From positions 1-52,389 of IMG/VR virus record IMGVR_UViG_3300023178_001875: 52,389 nt of DNA; one strand, written 5' to 3'. Below are positions 17,203 to 37,394 of this stretch, piece by piece. The DNA comes from a virus. Numbering within the stretch: position 1 is the stretch's first letter; every line of letters starts with the position of its first letter. Below the pieces are notes generated by a model, which saw only the letters and a program-made list of their open reading frames with translations, did not search any database and was not told the origin of the DNA. Made by a program: the position numbers and the translations under genes.

Positions 17203-17396
17203 TCGTATATTATTTTTATACCTCTACGAATAAGTTCTCGTCTAACTTTATTTTTAATTTTTGGTTTAGCAGATAGACTGTTTAGATATTCTATTAGTTC
17301 TTCTTTAGGTGTTTGTTTTAGATAGAAATGGACCTCTTTGTTTTTACCGGTTGCTTTATCCCTTATTGAATGACTGGGCTTGAATTTTTCCGGCAC
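17199..17396 (-). CDS. Small basic protein, 65 aa, downstream of iscU
   Basis: It starts with GTG at 17396, overlapping the TAG of iscU (TAGTG). The protein is lysine/arginine-rich, with VHFYLKQTPKEELIEYL followed by a basic helix (KIKNKVRRELIRRGIK), suggesting nucleic-acid binding. It is translationally coupled to iscU and so probably expressed with it. Function unknown. Confidence 0.6.
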   Translation of the reverse strand: MPEKFKPSHSIRDKATGKNKEVHFYLKQTPKEELIEYLNSLSAKPKIKNKVRRELIRRGIKIIYE

Positions 17397-17872
17397 TATT
17401 TAGGTCCTCCGTTATGGCCAATCATGCTGTCATCTTTTTTAATCATGCTGTCTAAAAAAGTGCCTTTTCGACCTGCTTTCTTTTCTTCCCAATCTTTAAT
17501 AGCACGTTGAATACTATCTTCTGCTAGTACAGAACAGTGTATTTTGATAGGCGGCAATTCTAATGCTTCAGCAATTTCTTTATCTTTTATCTGCTTTGCT
17601 TCTTCGATTGTTTTGCCGATAAGCATTTCGACAAACATACTACTAGATGCTATTGCACTTCCGCAACCATAAGTTTTAAATTTTACATCTTCTATAACTT
17701 CAGTTTCTGGATTAAGTTTTAGATCTAGTTTCATAACATCACCACATGCAGGAGCACCTGTCATGCCTATAGCAACGTTTGGATCGTTAGGGTCAAACCG
17801 ACCTACCCCATGAGCGCCTGGGTTATTTGTAACCTGCTCAAATCGGTCGATTACTTTTTGTGAATATGCCAT
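17396..17872 (-). CDS. iscU: IscU-type Fe-S cluster scaffold protein, 158 aa
   Basis: The sequence closely follows bacterial IscU (128 aa in E. coli). The three cluster cysteines are C43 (GAPACGDVMKL), C70 (FKTYGCGSAIASSS) and C113 (IHCSVLAEDSI); the regulatory aspartate D45 is kept. LPPIK (107-111) is the HscA-binding LPPVK motif. There is a short insertion near residues 16-28 and a C-terminal extension of about 25 residues. IscU assembles [2Fe-2S] clusters with IscS and passes them on with HscA/HscB, none of which are in the window, so host partners are implied. It has a consensus promoter but no clear ribosome binding site. Confidence 0.95.
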   Translation of the reverse strand: MAYSQKVIDRFEQVTNNPGAHGVGRFDPNDPNVAIGMTGAPACGDVMKLDLKLNPETEVIEDVKFKTYGCGSAIASSSMFVEMLIGKTIEEAKQIKDKEIAEALELPPIKIHCSVLAEDSIQRAIKDWEEKKAGRKGTFLDSMIKKDDSMIGHNGGPK

Positions 17873-17928: not shown

Positions 17929-18318
17929 CTATTCAGGTTGTGTTTCTTCTTGCTCACTTTCGTAATATTCTTTGTAAGCATCTATAATTCTATTTTGCTT
18001 TAGCATGTATGCACGTATTTGTGCATAATTCATTCTAAAGTTTTCATAGTTTTCATCGGTCAAACCTATTAGCACAGGGTCAATACCTTTTGCTTCTAGA
18101 TCTGCAAAAACCTGCTCTGCATTTTCTCTGTTAATTATAATCCAGCGAACTTCTTCCAGTTGTGCAGGTTCGGGTAGAGGTAAATTTAACGGCTGTCTTG
18201 CAACTTCTGTTTTTAATACTTCAACTGGCTTGATAGTACTACATCCACTAATAAGGGACGTAGTTAGGATTAGCAAGCTCAGGACAAACAGTGTTGATCT
18301 GTGACTTCTTTGTAGCAT
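17929..18318 (-). CDS. Outer-membrane spanin lipoprotein (o-spanin, Rz1-like), 129 aa
   Basis: A signal sequence ends in a lipobox, LISGC, with C26 the predicted lipidated residue. A proline-rich stretch (LNLPLPEP) and a periplasmic helical region follow. Its start lies 71 bases inside the i-spanin gene in another frame, the classic overlapping Rz/Rz1 arrangement. It would join the i-spanin across the periplasm and fuse inner and outer membranes at lysis. This implies a Gram-negative host. It is longer than the 60-residue lambda Rz1. Confidence 0.82.
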   Translation of the reverse strand: MLQRSHRSTLFVLSLLILTTSLISGCSTIKPVEVLKTEVARQPLNLPLPEPAQLEEVRWIIINRENAEQVFADLEAKGIDPVLIGLTDENYENFRMNYAQIRAYMLKQNRIIDAYKEYYESEQEETQPE

Positions 18319-18733
18319 TTAACTCCTCTTCGGTTAATTCGGCGCCACCTATTATTTCAAAGCAACGTCTTTCATTAACTTCATCTTTATTTAATATACG
18401 CTCTATACTTAATGGTCTTTCAACTGATAAAGCGCCTATATCTCTTTCTACTCCAGACGCATTCAACTGGTTAAATTTTTCATTTAAATTATTGATATTT
18501 GTCTGTAACATTCTATTTACATCTTCTAAGTCATTACGTACCTGAGTAATGGCTTCAAAGTCTCTTTGTTGTTGTTCTATTAGTGCTTGTTGTTCCTGTA
18601 TTCCATCCTCAAGTTTTACAATATTCATCTTTGCTGTGTCAAGGTCGCTTTGTAACTTCTTGACATACCAGAAGCCACCGCCTGCACTAGCAAGGATAAT
18701 TAAAAATATTGCAATTCTTAGACTACTAAACAT
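18248..18733 (-). CDS. Inner-membrane spanin (i-spanin, Rz-like), 161 aa
   Basis: One N-terminal membrane span (about 6-24, RIAIFLIILASAGGGFWYV) is followed by a long coiled coil (about 27-95) and a periplasmic end with two cysteines (near residues 123 and 149). Size, topology and the embedded o-spanin gene match Rz. Its start overlaps the ACP-like gene by eight bases, and the endolysin lies just upstream, making a lysis unit. Confidence 0.82.
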   Translation of the reverse strand: MFSSLRIAIFLIILASAGGGFWYVKKLQSDLDTAKMNIVKLEDGIQEQQALIEQQQRDFEAITQVRNDLEDVNRMLQTNINNLNEKFNQLNASGVERDIGALSVERPLSIERILNKDEVNERRCFEIIGGAELTEEELNATKKSQINTVCPELANPNYVPY

Positions 18734-18956
18734 TAACGTGTTTGCCTACTACTTCAATTAGATCTTGTACAGTACCAATATCAAATGTTTCCTCTTCTGG
18801 AATTTCAATATCAAGTTTTTTAGTAACTTGCACTACAACATCAACTATATCTATCTCATCTCCGTCTAGATCATCTAAAAAATGACTTGCGGGAGTGAAC
18901 TCTTTTTCAGCACCGAAATGATCTTTCAGTACTTGCATAATAACATCTACATACAT
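18726..18956 (-). CDS. Acyl-carrier-protein-like protein lacking the phosphopantetheine serine, 76 aa
   Basis: Length, acidity and sequence follow bacterial ACP: LDDLDGDEIDIVDVV aligns with EDLGADSLDTVELV, and LDIEIPEEETFDIGTVQDLI with [20 protein letters not shown] of E. coli AcpP. The serine of the DSL motif that carries 4'-phosphopantetheine is replaced by glutamate E34 (codon GAG), so it cannot be a conventional acyl carrier. It sits between endolysin and spanin genes with AGGA before its ATG. It may mimic ACP and bind ACP partners, or act in lysis; both are inference. Confidence 0.8.
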   Translation of the reverse strand: MYVDVIMQVLKDHFGAEKEFTPASHFLDDLDGDEIDIVDVVVQVTKKLDIEIPEEETFDIGTVQDLIEVVGKHVNV

Positions 18957-18960
18957 AATT

Positions 18961-19830
18961 TTATCCTAATAGTTCTCCGAGTGTAGCAGGACCAGCAATG
19001 CCGTCAGCTACTAGGCCTTTGCTTGCTTGCCACTCTTTTAATACACGTTCTGTGCCAGGTCCAAAAATACCATCAGCACTAATACCTAGTGCTTCTTGCA
19101 TCATTTTTACACCTTCACCTCTGCAACCTTTGCGGAGCACTCCGATATCATCAATATCAAAGTCATCGTCTCCATTATCATCTGCAATACTTACAGGGTT
19201 GCCTAAAATTTCCATTGCAGATACATAACGTTTTTGACGATCGGCTAACCCAATGTTACCACCGTTAATTTTCTTAGTCATTTTAACAACGTCATCAGTA
19301 TCAGCAATGCTGTTTAAGTTGTTTGTATCCCAGAACCAGCATGCTGATTCAACAGCACCTTTTTCTGTAGCAACATACACAGCTGCTTCTTCGGCAGACA
19401 TATTAACTGATGCTCCAAACCGTGTATAATTCTCACGTCCAGTTAACTGTTTTAAACCACGACCACGGAACAACCAACCGTCGCCTTCTTTAACATTGCC
19501 CATCTTGTATTTACGGAACTCGTCCATGTATACATAGTTTGCAATTTTCTCTGGGTTTCTTGCATATTCAGCAGCATTACGCTTTGGCGGCGCACCAAAG
19601 TAGCGACCAAATACAGCATTTAATGCTTTTTCACTATAATTTAGATTTTCTTGTAAACTTTTGAAGTTTCCACTTTCATGAGCACATTGACTTAAAAAGT
19701 GTGCTACTCTTCGCTTAGTATTAATTTCATATTTAGGCATAATTGCTATCAAAGCATCATACCACTTATCCACATCTTTATTTCCTGGGATTATTTTTGC
19801 AAGGTGATCTCTAGTGAATTCAAAGTCCAT
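18961..19830 (-). CDS. GH19-type endolysin with C-terminal peptidoglycan-binding domain, 289 aa
   Basis: The catalytic domain (about 1-210) has AHFLSQCAHESGNF with the likely acid E52, ENLNYSEKAL with E61, and LFRGRGLKQLTGRENYTRFG, typical of phage GH19 chitinase/lysozyme-like muramidases. Residues 222-289 form a PG_binding_1 domain (KGCRGEGVKMMQEALGISAD, then GIFGPGTERVLKEWQ). There is no signal peptide, so holin-dependent release is expected. It heads the lysis unit with ACP-like, i-spanin and o-spanin genes. The ATG follows AGGAAGAAAT. Confidence 0.92.
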   Translation of the reverse strand: MDFEFTRDHLAKIIPGNKDVDKWYDALIAIMPKYEINTKRRVAHFLSQCAHESGNFKSLQENLNYSEKALNAVFGRYFGAPPKRNAAEYARNPEKIANYVYMDEFRKYKMGNVKEGDGWLFRGRGLKQLTGRENYTRFGASVNMSAEEAAVYVATEKGAVESACWFWDTNNLNSIADTDDVVKMTKKINGGNIGLADRQKRYVSAMEILGNPVSIADDNGDDDFDIDDIGVLRKGCRGEGVKMMQEALGISADGIFGPGTERVLKEWQASKGLVADGIAGPATLGELLG

Positions 19831-19847: not shown

Positions 19848-20567
19848 CTACTTACGTAGTCTTTCTACAACTAGTGTATTGTTACTATTATCTAGCGATA
19901 GTTTATTACCATATTTAGTAATGTTGTAATCGCCAAGGTATTTACTTAAAAAGATAATTTCAGCAAAATCATCTGTATTAACTCTTTCGTTTATGTTTGC
20001 GATAGTGTTTATCGTTTCTCCAAAATCAATGACTCTAAATTGGATTGGTTCTGCATACACTTTTTTAAGTGTTAGTACGTCACCTGTCATATACGATTCT
20101 TCTAAGTAACTTTTGTTAAAGAAATCTTTGTAATTATTTAGACGTGTTTCTTGGATTTTAATATCGTAAGTATTACTGTCTAATGGAATCTCTTCTGCAA
20201 GACTATCTTGCGTAAGATCTTTTGATTTAAAATTTTTGTAGTATCTAAATTTTAAACTTTCTATGTCAGACAGTTTACAAACACCGTCTGCAATTTCCAT
20301 AACTTGTTCTGGAATATGTTTTGATCTTTCTACTTCTACAAAAACTTTATATGTGCCATCACTTTGTTCGCCTGGTGTAGCATCAGCATCTAAAACAAAG
20401 TCATACCCTTTTTCTAAAAAATTCATTAGATCATTAGCCGCTTCTTTTTCCTTAACACTAAATGCTAATGTTACTATGTCTTTATCTTCCCCCATTTTTG
20501 ATTTGAAACTATCAATTTCAAAAATGTCGTAGACCATGTTTTTTAAATCTGATTTAAGTAAACCCAT
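19848..20567 (-). CDS. Conserved-type phage protein, 239 aa, probable virion component
   Basis: The protein is acidic with mixed alpha/beta character and no catalytic motif or membrane span. LLKSDLKNMVYDIFE starts a charged helical N-terminus and the end NNTLVVERLRK is basic. It starts at a TAATG overlap with the 170-residue gene and shares that gene's late-type promoter. From memory, T4-like marine phages carry this pair side by side. The exact role is unknown. Confidence 0.6.
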   Translation of the reverse strand: MGLLKSDLKNMVYDIFEIDSFKSKMGEDKDIVTLAFSVKEKEAANDLMNFLEKGYDFVLDADATPGEQSDGTYKVFVEVERSKHIPEQVMEIADGVCKLSDIESLKFRYYKNFKSKDLTQDSLAEEIPLDSNTYDIKIQETRLNNYKDFFNKSYLEESYMTGDVLTLKKVYAEPIQFRVIDFGETINTIANINERVNTDDFAEIIFLSKYLGDYNITKYGNKLSLDNSNNTLVVERLRK

Positions 20568-21079
20568 TAGGCTAATTCTCCTGCTGGTTCAGGTGTTGCT
20601 TCTACGTCGGCTTGCTGTGGCTCTTGTTGTGCTGTTGCTGGAACAGCAGGTTCAGTAACTTGCTCTTTGTAACCACCGTAAATATCTGCAAGTAAACTCT
20701 TAGGCATTTCAATGTTTACAATCCATATAGGTTTACGATCAAGTTTACCTTTTTTAGTGCCGTCACGCATGTCGCTAGGTTTCTTAATTTTACGGGGTAC
20801 AATTATATCATCTTTTTGATAAGAAACTTTGCAATCATAATCTACTAAACGCTTGCCACCCATAGGATCTGGCATGTTGTTCCGATCCCACATAAACTTA
20901 CAAGATACCCAATGTCTTGTTATATCAGGACCTTGTAATAATTCACCATCTTGCCAGTTATCATATACATACAGGTCTAGTTCATCTAGCACTCTTTCAA
21001 AGTCTTTTAAGATTTGAAACGCCGAATCGCTATTATATATGTTTTCAACATTTTTTATAATATCTAAAGTATCTTGCAT
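20567..21079 (-). CDS. Conserved-type phage protein, 170 aa, probable virion component
   Basis: The N-terminal 130 residues look folded (DNWQDGELLQGPDITRHWV, YDCKVSYQKDDIIVPRKIKK). The last 35 residues are a proline/alanine/glutamate/glutamine-rich low-complexity tail. The ATG follows GCGGAGAGTACAA. It is the first leftward gene after the divergent phoH region and has a late-type promoter. Function is not known. Confidence 0.62.
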   Translation of the reverse strand: MQDTLDIIKNVENIYNSDSAFQILKDFERVLDELDLYVYDNWQDGELLQGPDITRHWVSCKFMWDRNNMPDPMGGKRLVDYDCKVSYQKDDIIVPRKIKKPSDMRDGTKKGKLDRKPIWIVNIEMPKSLLADIYGGYKEQVTEPAVPATAQQEPQQADVEATPEPAGELA

Positions 21080-35009: not shown

Positions 35010-37394
35010 TTATAACCTCATATTCCACCCTTTAGATCTAAGGTACTCAATTTGTTCTACAGCGTCACCTGTTGGTGTTGAGGTATTAGCAAGGTTAATG
35101 CTTATACCACTACGAGGATTCGCTTCATAGTTAGCAACTAGATCTGCAACAATATTATTTACCGCTCCAGTTGGTAAGTTAGGATTGTTACTTATATCAA
35201 ATCTATATAAAGATCTGCAACTTACTAATGCACCTGCTACATAATCTGTAAAGTTGTTGTTGTTTAGATAGAAGTCGTAACATAATGTAAGATTATTCAT
35301 ATCTGGAACAGCGCCAGTTATTTGATTGTAACTGATAAACAAACGTCTAAGATTAGGTGTTTCAAGTCCGTTAAATGATGTTAATTGATTGCTGTGTACA
35401 TAGTAGTATTGTAATGCATTGCTTTGTATAACCGGAATAGCACCACTAAAACTATTTCCATATAAGTGACAATAGTATAATAGTGGATTATTAAAGAAAT
35501 TAGGCAAAGGACCTGTAAAGTTATTTTGTAACATTACGATATAACGTAGGTTCTGCATTGTATTTAAACTAGGAAATGCTCCGCTTACACCTGCATTAAA
35601 CGATCTAAATACGATACCTATCATGCCTGTTGGTTTTTCAAAACAATCAGGGTGCATAGGAGCATTTAACAAACTACTACTTGCTACATGGAAGTAACGC
35701 ATTGCACTTGCACAGTCGTCAAACACATCGTCATACAAAACGTAGTCTTGTTCTGTGTCAGATCGCCCGCCTCTTAGTCTTGTATACTGAGCTTGTACAT
35801 AGTAAAGTCTACTGTTACCTGCAAATTTAGGTATAGGTCCGTAATAGCCGCTTGAGTATGCATATATTAATCTTAAGTTACCACAGTTAGCAAACTTATA
35901 ACTTCCGCTCGTTGTAGTAAACAAATTAGAATCTGGTGCTATTCCACTACCACTATTATAGTGAGCATAAAATAAATCCATTGAATTTTTATTGGCTAAG
36001 TTAGGAACGTTTATACCCGGGTTACCACCTATGTTTACATAGTTGATTACAGGACTTAATATTTGGAAGTTATTATCGTATATACTATTGCTATATAAAT
36101 TAATCTGTCTAAGGTCAGGCAAGTCTTTTACACTTTGCGGAACAGTATTAAAACTGTTTCTGTACATGTAATAGTTTTGAACTGTATTTGCTACTTCGGG
36201 AGTTGAACCAGTTGGATCGTCTGCATCTTGATCAAAATAATTAAATGCACCACCTCTGCTGTGTCCGTTTAGATTTAATGTAAGCAAATTTGTTAGTGTT
36301 GTTAAGTCTGCTGTAATACTTCCGTTAAAAGTATTACCAAATCTAATCTCTCTAACAGTGTTTGGTATACGTGCTAATACATCATTATTAAATTTACGTA
36401 AATTAGGTTCGTCACCTAGTGTGAAATTATTTTCACGCACATCTAATAATCTGCAATCGGGCACAAAAGTATTAAAATCTGGAAACGTTTTTATAACATT
36501 TCCATTTAGATATAAATTTTGACAATTTTCTAGTTGTGCAGCAGGTAATTCACTTATTCCTACTCCTGATAAAGGTAGTGTTAAAATATTATTTGGGTTA
36601 TGATAAATTTCTATGTTTTTAGATGCCGCCCCTGTATCTCTGTATCTTAAGAAACTTCTAGTAGTATTAGAGCCTCCAACATTTTCATACTCCTTTGTTA
36701 GGTAGTCAAACTGATTATTAACTATTCTCCAACTAACCGCGCCTGCTGTAACAAGTCTCAAGTCACTATCTAAATTACGGAAAAATCCTTCAAATATTAA
36801 AGGTATTCCTTTCATAGCATACAGATAAACTGTCTGGCCATTTATAGTTGCTTGTATTTTATGAGTAGGTACTTCGGAACTTCTAAATCTAACAAGGTCT
36901 GCTGGTTTAAGTATTTCTAATGTTTGTGTTTCAACAGCACCATCAACTTCTATTTGACTACCATAAAAAATTGGACTAGTATCTGTTGCAGGGCTGTCTG
37001 TACTACTCCAACTACTTACACGGCTTGTGCTTATATCAGCAAACTTTAAAGTAGAATTATCATCGTCTACGTATTGATACTTAATTGCACCTGCACCTAA
37101 TACACCATTTACAGTTAGATTTCCTTTTAGTGATTCAGAGGTGCCTGCTGTTTCATCAATGATTGCACTATATTGTAAAGTATCTTGATAAAGTTTTACT
37201 AGATATGTTTGGACAGGAACATTAAGCCCACTTAGAGCTTTTACATCATCTGCTGTAATACCTAAATCGCCAGCTGCTCCTCGTATAACATCAAGGTCGT
37301 TAATATCGATGCCAATGTTAGCTAAAGCCGCTAAAGGATCTGCAACATCTGCAAGACTTCTGTTTACGTTTAGACCGAATTTTATTTCCGCCAT
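35010..37394 (-). CDS. Leucine-rich-repeat virion protein, 794 aa
   Basis: The N-terminal 250 residues carry phage-fibre-like sequence (LSGLNVPVQTYLVKLYQDTL, SLKGNLTVNGVLGAG). From about 270 to 770 there are irregular leucine-rich repeats of the plant-type LxxLxxNxxxGxIP pattern: NNFTGPLPNFFNNPLLYY, NSFSGAIPVIQSNALQYY, LRRLFISYNQITGAVPDM and LDVRENNFTLGD. The end (VEQIEYLRSKGWNMRL) resembles the caps of bacterial LRR proteins. It starts immediately after the stop of the 1147-residue gene. LRR solenoids bind proteins, so this is a candidate receptor-binding or surface-binding fibre. Confidence 0.82.
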   Translation of the reverse strand: MAEIKFGLNVNRSLADVADPLAALANIGIDINDLDVIRGAAGDLGITADDVKALSGLNVPVQTYLVKLYQDTLQYSAIIDETAGTSESLKGNLTVNGVLGAGAIKYQYVDDDNSTLKFADISTSRVSSWSSTDSPATDTSPIFYGSQIEVDGAVETQTLEILKPADLVRFRSSEVPTHKIQATINGQTVYLYAMKGIPLIFEGFFRNLDSDLRLVTAGAVSWRIVNNQFDYLTKEYENVGGSNTTRSFLRYRDTGAASKNIEIYHNPNNILTLPLSGVGISELPAAQLENCQNLYLNGNVIKTFPDFNTFVPDCRLLDVRENNFTLGDEPNLRKFNNDVLARIPNTVREIRFGNTFNGSITADLTTLTNLLTLNLNGHSRGGAFNYFDQDADDPTGSTPEVANTVQNYYMYRNSFNTVPQSVKDLPDLRQINLYSNSIYDNNFQILSPVINYVNIGGNPGINVPNLANKNSMDLFYAHYNSGSGIAPDSNLFTTTSGSYKFANCGNLRLIYAYSSGYYGPIPKFAGNSRLYYVQAQYTRLRGGRSDTEQDYVLYDDVFDDCASAMRYFHVASSSLLNAPMHPDCFEKPTGMIGIVFRSFNAGVSGAFPSLNTMQNLRYIVMLQNNFTGPLPNFFNNPLLYYCHLYGNSFSGAIPVIQSNALQYYYVHSNQLTSFNGLETPNLRRLFISYNQITGAVPDMNNLTLCYDFYLNNNNFTDYVAGALVSCRSLYRFDISNNPNLPTGAVNNIVADLVANYEANPRSGISINLANTSTPTGDAVEQIEYLRSKGWNMRL

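Follow-up and report, generated by a model that had tools for sequence, protein, structure and literature searches.

The gene at positions 18726..18956 (minus strand) of the window, the whole stretch of 52,389 nucleotides analysed here, encodes a 76-residue protein that is predicted to fold as an acyl carrier protein (ACP) and in which an acidic residue replaces the phosphopantetheine serine. We call it ACP-E. ACP is a hub that interacts with many proteins, and it owes its carrier function to the serine. Judged from its sequence and those of its relatives, ACP-E is a remodelled, non-acylatable ACP mimic rather than a decayed ACP.

The ACP-E gene and its neighbours

The open reading frame is on the minus strand, which the preliminary description left unstated; the plus-strand reading of 18726-18956 contains stops. 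It lies inside a lysis cassette whose genes all run in the same direction. On one side is an endolysin (18961..19830, minus strand; PHROG 181 endolysin, 9.6e-73) with a peptidoglycan-binding domain (PF01471, 5.3e-11) and a GH19-like catalytic part that scores just below the Pfam cut-off (PF00182, 22.5 bits, cut-off 25.5). On the other side are the i-spanin (18248..18733, minus strand; PHROG 739 Rz-like spanin, 4.1e-10) and, overlapping it, the o-spanin (17929..18318, minus strand; PHROG 812 Rz-like spanin, 4.3e-12), a lipoprotein with a lipobox recognised by eye as LISGC. The coordinates and profile matches thus agree with the original placing of the gene between an endolysin and overlapping spanin genes. 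Four nucleotides lie between the endolysin stop (18961) and the ACP-E start (18956), while the ACP-E stop (18726) overlaps the i-spanin start (18733) by 8 nt, and translation of ACP-E is probably coupled to that of the i-spanin.

Two genes for virion structural proteins lie upstream of the endolysin, at 19848..20567 (PHROG 13138, 5.1e-21) and 20567..21079 (PHROG 12928, 3e-27), both on the minus strand. We infer late expression of ACP-E, along with the genes for virion and lysis proteins. In the window the T4 late-promoter word TATAAATA is depleted (1 observed against 8.5 expected from shuffles, sd 2.8), and its single match is far from ACP-E and the lysis genes, so that it is the gene context that points to late expression.

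The gene next after the spanins encodes an IscU/NifU-like Fe-S scaffold (17396..17872, minus strand; PF01592, 7.6e-42). Several relatives have a full-length IscS preceding the IscU-like gene (L005:5064-6716), and in two records a further NifU-like copy contains an in-frame stop. Elsewhere in the window, 35010-37394 encodes a 794-residue protein that appears leucine-rich-repeat-like by eye.

The pairing with the i-spanin is constant, the two genes being adjacent in all 52 related contigs described below. The gene upstream of ACP-E varies, and can be a GH19-like endolysin, another lysozyme-like gene (by eye), or none. The synteny proposed earlier therefore holds for the i-spanin but not for the endolysin, which changes type or is absent. 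We rejected the endolysin as the functional partner of ACP-E, because its slot changes or empties while ACP-E and the i-spanin stay paired.

Many relatives do without ACP-E. This is true of 25 of the 41 loci found from the virion gene (a few of them incomplete), despite their having lysis genes of the same kind. Where ACP-E is missing, the i-spanin mostly comes straight after the endolysin or another lysozyme-like gene; in one such relative (L094), a small CxxC ORF occupies the slot. A CxxC protein of about 50 residues, zinc-ribbon-like by eye, recurs beside the endolysin (L039:5634-5777, L084:6720-6893, L110:7248-7406 and others). The ACP profile PF00550 matched 17 of 30 records scanned overall, one of them below cut-off; it was found once per record in 15 ACP-E records, and in none of the 10 ACP-minus IMG/VR records. 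The cultured Pelagibacter phage HTVC008M, which has a related i-spanin, gave no PF00550 match either. Since so many relatives have this kind of lysis genes and no ACP-E, lysis probably does not need this protein.

ACP fold, acidic residue and docking face

Profile and structure searches agree on the ACP assignment made in the preliminary description. ACP-E matches Pfam PF00550 with an E-value of 2.7e-7 (31.2 bits, cut-off 20.8) and PHROG 5934, annotated as acyl carrier protein, at 1.3e-8. PF00550 was run on four family members, and one of these (L063) was slightly below the cut-off at 19.6 bits. The AlphaFold2 model, built from an alignment of 27 sequences, has a pLDDT of 92.8. Foldseek against the PDB at E ≤ 0.001 returned nine matches, all of them ACP chains by title and length, and the TMq of the nine best PDB matches was 0.76-0.84.

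In ACPs the phosphopantetheine serine is at the start of helix II. A phmmer alignment to solved ACPs (best E 7.1e-10) pairs residue 34 of ACP-E with the serine of the DSL motif, and the predicted helix begins at this residue. It corresponds to Ser36 of AcpP and is encoded by GAG, Glu (18855..18857, minus strand; CTC on the plus strand), as first described. A substitute serine was considered and rejected, there being no conserved one near helix II: the sole invariant Ser or Thr in the 27-sequence alignment is T62, far from the helix II start. With the serine replaced by Glu or Asp, no phosphopantetheine is to be expected at the usual site, and ACP-E probably mimics the host carrier without the ability to carry there.

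The acidic residue is found throughout the family. Position 34 is Glu in 30 and Asp in 22 of 52 distinct related IMG/VR contigs, which include many near-copies and comprise 29 distinct ACP-E sequences. The IMG/VR scans used the window protein or family alignments as query, and the pool consists of 43 contigs from a scan for an E/D pattern, 3 from a scan anchored on the i-spanin, and 6 from another scan. The pattern demands Glu or Asp, so the scan behind 43 of the 52 could not have detected serine members. Searches anchored on neighbouring genes are blind to residue 34, and hence provide an unbiased test. From the i-spanin, 44 of 46 contigs were found to have an ACP-like ORF that runs into the start of the i-spanin, with Glu or Asp in 44/44; from the virion gene, 16 of the 41 loci carry ACP-E, with Glu or Asp in 16/16, including three new divergent Asp members. 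From the scans with the protein or its alignments, two loci (L008 and L009) were dropped, as the match was 18 residues within an unrelated ORF. The remaining two i-spanin-anchored contigs have in the ACP-E slot a 36-residue hydrophobic ORF (L067:5889-5999 and L073:5886-5996), which could be a small holin.

Alignment A2, with 27 distinct proteins, reaches down to 30% identity to the window protein and has 10 invariant columns, including D33 and D36. All 27 copies have an open frame of similar length. In a phylogenetic tree, the spanin-linked family is a single clade (support 100/98). As far as sampled, the acidic substitution is a family-wide trait. Close relatives with a serine were sought within the family and none was seen, in keeping with the earlier suggestion that the protein is non-acylatable.

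Outside the family, a bacterial scan with the window protein gave 13 loci, with serine in the 12 ACPs that were read (all but L221). A GTDB scan with alignment A2, whose pattern is biased in that it demands Glu or Asp, found no relative, and tblastn of the window and L055 proteins against named phages gave no match. A cellular or prophage origin of ACP-E thus has no support from the GTDB scans.

The acidity is maintained at the level of the protein. Among 27 distinct sequences, codon 34 is GAA in 10, GAG in 8, GAT in 6 and GAC in 3; the family tree requires four switches between Glu and Asp at this residue, none of which leaves acidity; and dN/dS is 0.065-0.276 in eight pairs of family members. 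These ratios indicate that the family is under purifying selection, and together with the codon use and the switches they argue that acidity at 34 is kept as such.

The residues around the site have fared differently. The positions of AcpP D35, D38, E41 and D56 are acidic in all 28 ACP-E members compared. The E49 position is Lys in 27 of 28, the E53 and E60 positions are acidic in only 2 and 3 respectively, and those of E47 and E48 in 14 each; the acidic counts in 25 serine ACPs are 16 (position 49), 23 (53), 20 (60), 25 (47) and 21 (48). ACP-E therefore resembles AcpP in its predicted fold, its length, its net charge (-14, against -15 for AcpP), the pair of Asp flanking the site and the acidity at E41 and D56. 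It differs in having Glu or Asp for Ser36, in having Phe, Ile, Met or Tyr for L37 of the DSL motif, in the change of E49 to Lys, and in the loss of E53 and E60 in most members and of E47 and E48 in half. ACP-E has preserved the docking helix at its top and remodelled it elsewhere; most of the acidity on the lower face of helix II is gone.

Acyl carrier proteins of other phages

Among the 11 ACPs of named phages first checked, the site is Ser in 10 and Asn in one (Vibrio phage 277E43-1); the ACPs of helene, ICP1 and P-HM1 have Ser. Two adjacent genes annotated as acyl carrier protein occur in Pseudomonas phage HRDY3 (L189:1789-2758), one encoding a 236-residue protein with an ACP-like region at its C-terminus.

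A parallel in gene order is seen in RaK2-like jumbo phages (L193, L199-L203): in the five that were read, Erwinia phage pEa_SNUABM_12, GAP32, CBB, XbC2 and Munch, an ACP gene is followed by i-spanin and o-spanin. The spanin calls are based on PHROGs for pEa_SNUABM_12 and Munch, and on annotation, a spanin screen or gene order for the others. The ACPs of the same two phages are assigned to PHROG 18343, that of Munch scoring slightly below the PF00550 cut-off (20.2 bits). Our crude screen for spanin pairs found them at four of the five loci (missing XbC2, which nevertheless has an annotated O-spanin) but at none of the 14 other phage ACP loci screened, which include one Glu type; two further Glu-type ACP genes had no annotated spanin nearby. 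A virion gene of the window also has distant relatives in the RaK2-like phages. As in the ACP-E family, the RaK2-like ACP gene is directly upstream of the spanins. In contrast to ACP-E, these ACPs keep the serine (DSLD), have about 50 extra N-terminal residues, and do not overlap the i-spanin, which starts about 75 nt away. Linkage to spanins does not therefore require the loss of acylation.

The preliminary description knew of no lysis role for an ACP mimic. An ACP near a spanin-like gene has, however, already been remarked on for Erwinia jumbo phages, in which ACP was also found by mass spectrometry (PMC7760394, in the text accessible to us). Such proximity is thus in print. A literature search on ACP with spanins, lysis, phage auxiliary genes and Ser36 variants, covering few subscription papers, yielded no description of a serine-less phage ACP.

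Acidic residues at the serine position occur in two further groups of phages. Three Ackermannviridae proteins annotated as acyl carrier proteins have DELD instead of DSLD: Sajous1 gp186 (L222:2336-2662), and those of LIMEstone1 (L223:2339-2662) and phiMAM1 (L205:2384-2656), the last matching both PHROG 5934 and PF00550. They are probably not carriers. Like ACP-E they are phage-borne and have Glu at the serine position; unlike ACP-E they are not beside annotated spanins. In the Aeromonas phages ZPAH1 (L208:1983-3227) and Aswh_1 (L224:2001-3245), rIIB is extended at its N-terminus by an ACP-like domain in which Glu takes the place of the serine. Here the domain, in contrast to ACP-E, is fused to an HTH and the rIIB body, in that order (families were scanned for ZPAH1), and it is distant, with long branches in the tree. 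An rIIB profile gave no match in 17 IMG/VR records of the ACP-E group and its relatives, nor in 2 named phages. The profile did detect rIIB in 3 phages known to have it, but also matched 3 of 14 control genomes, and is therefore not specific.

The tree was built without the second ACP of HRDY3 and 6 of the 13 bacterial loci. It rests on 79 columns, its branches are long and its bootstrap had not settled. In AU tests, placing all acidic ACPs in a single clade was disfavoured (p-AU 0.014), and a clade of the ACP-E family with the RaK2-like ACPs was not rejected (p-AU 0.139). A repeated origin of acidic phage ACPs is suggested by this tree.

Proposed role and alternatives

We propose that ACP-E is a dedicated cytosolic ACP mimic that docks on a host protein recognising ACP. 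The target, the timing and the benefit to lysis are what we infer, and we consider the proposal to have an even chance of being right. The patch at the top of helix II (AcpP D35, D38, E41, D56) would be the part retained for docking, and Glu or Asp at the Ser36 position would provide a fixed negative charge where holo-ACP has the phosphate of its arm. ACP-E would then bind to the basic patch on a host protein whose recognition of ACP depends on protein contacts, and late in infection it would keep that protein ACP-bound or ACP-blocked.

The partner that we favour would tolerate an ACP with no arm, and could be holo-ACP synthase, a MukB-like SMC or another moonlighting ACP partner. The earlier suggestion that fatty-acid or lipid A enzymes are sequestered in general is weakened by the loss of most of the acidity on the lower face of helix II. 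An arm-independent partner does exist, since the MukB ATPase is stimulated comparably by apo-AcpP and holo-AcpP (PMC8602292, accessible part). There ACP is a protein ligand that works without its arm, as proposed for ACP-E; the difference is that the cellular ACP keeps its serine and is shared with lipid synthesis. Partners that need the arm may be beyond ACP-E, unless the acid replaces the phosphate, since in E. coli the Ser36Thr change in ACP abolished binding to IscS, for which D35 and D38 are also needed (according to the portion of PMC13343975 available). It counts against the mimic reading that Glu or Asp near the helix start may simply favour a helix.

More broadly, several phage lineages may independently have made ACP into a charge-locked decoy, in which Glu or Asp imitates the phosphate of holo-ACP, and may use it as a regulator of lysis or takeover. 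Such a decoy would be free and spanin-coupled in the uncultured ACP-E group, stand-alone in Ackermannviridae and rIIB-fused in the Aeromonas phages, and would couple the status of host lipids or of the ACP hub to the moment of lysis. We offer this as a speculative and rather unlikely extension.

The constant i-spanin, adjoining ACP-E whatever the endolysin, could also mean that ACP-E times lysis directly through the lysis machinery, be it spanins, holin or membrane state, instead of through a host partner of ACP. The gene order of the RaK2-like phages would fit such a factor, as would the Glu-type domain on the rIIB of two Aeromonas phages, a protein that PHROGs lists as a lysis inhibitor. Nevertheless, the i-spanin has only some 5-11 residues before its membrane segment (by eye), which leaves little for a cytosolic protein to hold, and direct action of ACP-E on the spanin is less likely for this reason. 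Considering also the relatives that have no ACP-E, the Glu-type genes away from annotated spanins, the failure of the crude screen to find pairs beside other phage ACPs and the unmatched rIIB profile, we think this alternative unlikely. The two virion genes upstream of the endolysin raise another, that ACP-E is a component of the virion or its assembly, serving as a small, acidic adaptor that accompanies the structural proteins or is injected. This seems to us distinctly improbable: the constant neighbour is the i-spanin, and as ACP is abundant and soluble, traces of it in virions may be carry-over. Detections that would favour such a role come from the mass spectrometry of Erwinia jumbo phages (PMC7760394) and from the Glu-type Sajous1 gp186, which has one count in a proteome table (PMC10892097), both as given in the accessible parts of these papers.

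The IscU-like gene lies directly after the spanins in three loci, and ACP-E might tune Fe-S assembly by binding a cysteine desulfurase, either host or phage IscS. ACP binds cysteine desulfurase both in E. coli and in the mitochondrial NFS1-ISD11-ACP complex, and its IscS contacts D35 and D38 are invariant in the family. Of 23 ACP-E records searched, 12 have IscU and 5 have IscS; among 10 ACP-minus IMG/VR records the numbers are 1 and 0 (in the latter case with one match below cut-off). These records are not independent, however, and the other 11 of the 23, many of them fragments but including deep branches, show no IscU, so that an Fe-S partner is not phage-borne in general. IscS as a general partner was rejected, being above cut-off in only those five records. 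The enrichment is a lead and not a rule and, given the loss of IscS binding in Ser36Thr ACP, tuning of Fe-S assembly by ACP-E is very unlikely. There remains the idea of a decayed auxiliary ACP gene with no function, in which the serine was lost by drift and the acidity reflects a helix preference. The serine is indeed gone, the Vibrio phage ACP mentioned above has Asn at the site, and Glu, Asp, Asn and Ser are all acceptable near the start of a helix. We nonetheless reject drift on the dN/dS values, the codon use, the acidity in 52/52 contigs with four Glu/Asp switches, and the invariant neighbouring residues; D35, D38, E41 and D56 are retained, as is an open frame of similar length in 27 distinct copies. 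Decay is thus scarcely credible.

The DELD proteins of Ackermannviridae suggest that many phage proteins annotated as acyl carrier proteins are not carriers; of 316 matched records, five were read for this residue, namely those of the three Ackermannviridae proteins and of both rIIB fusions. The ACP-E family has long kept its docking face while giving up the serine, and this makes it a natural arm-less ACP probe. It may also lead to some process of the host that is blocked or redirected by phages around the time of lysis.
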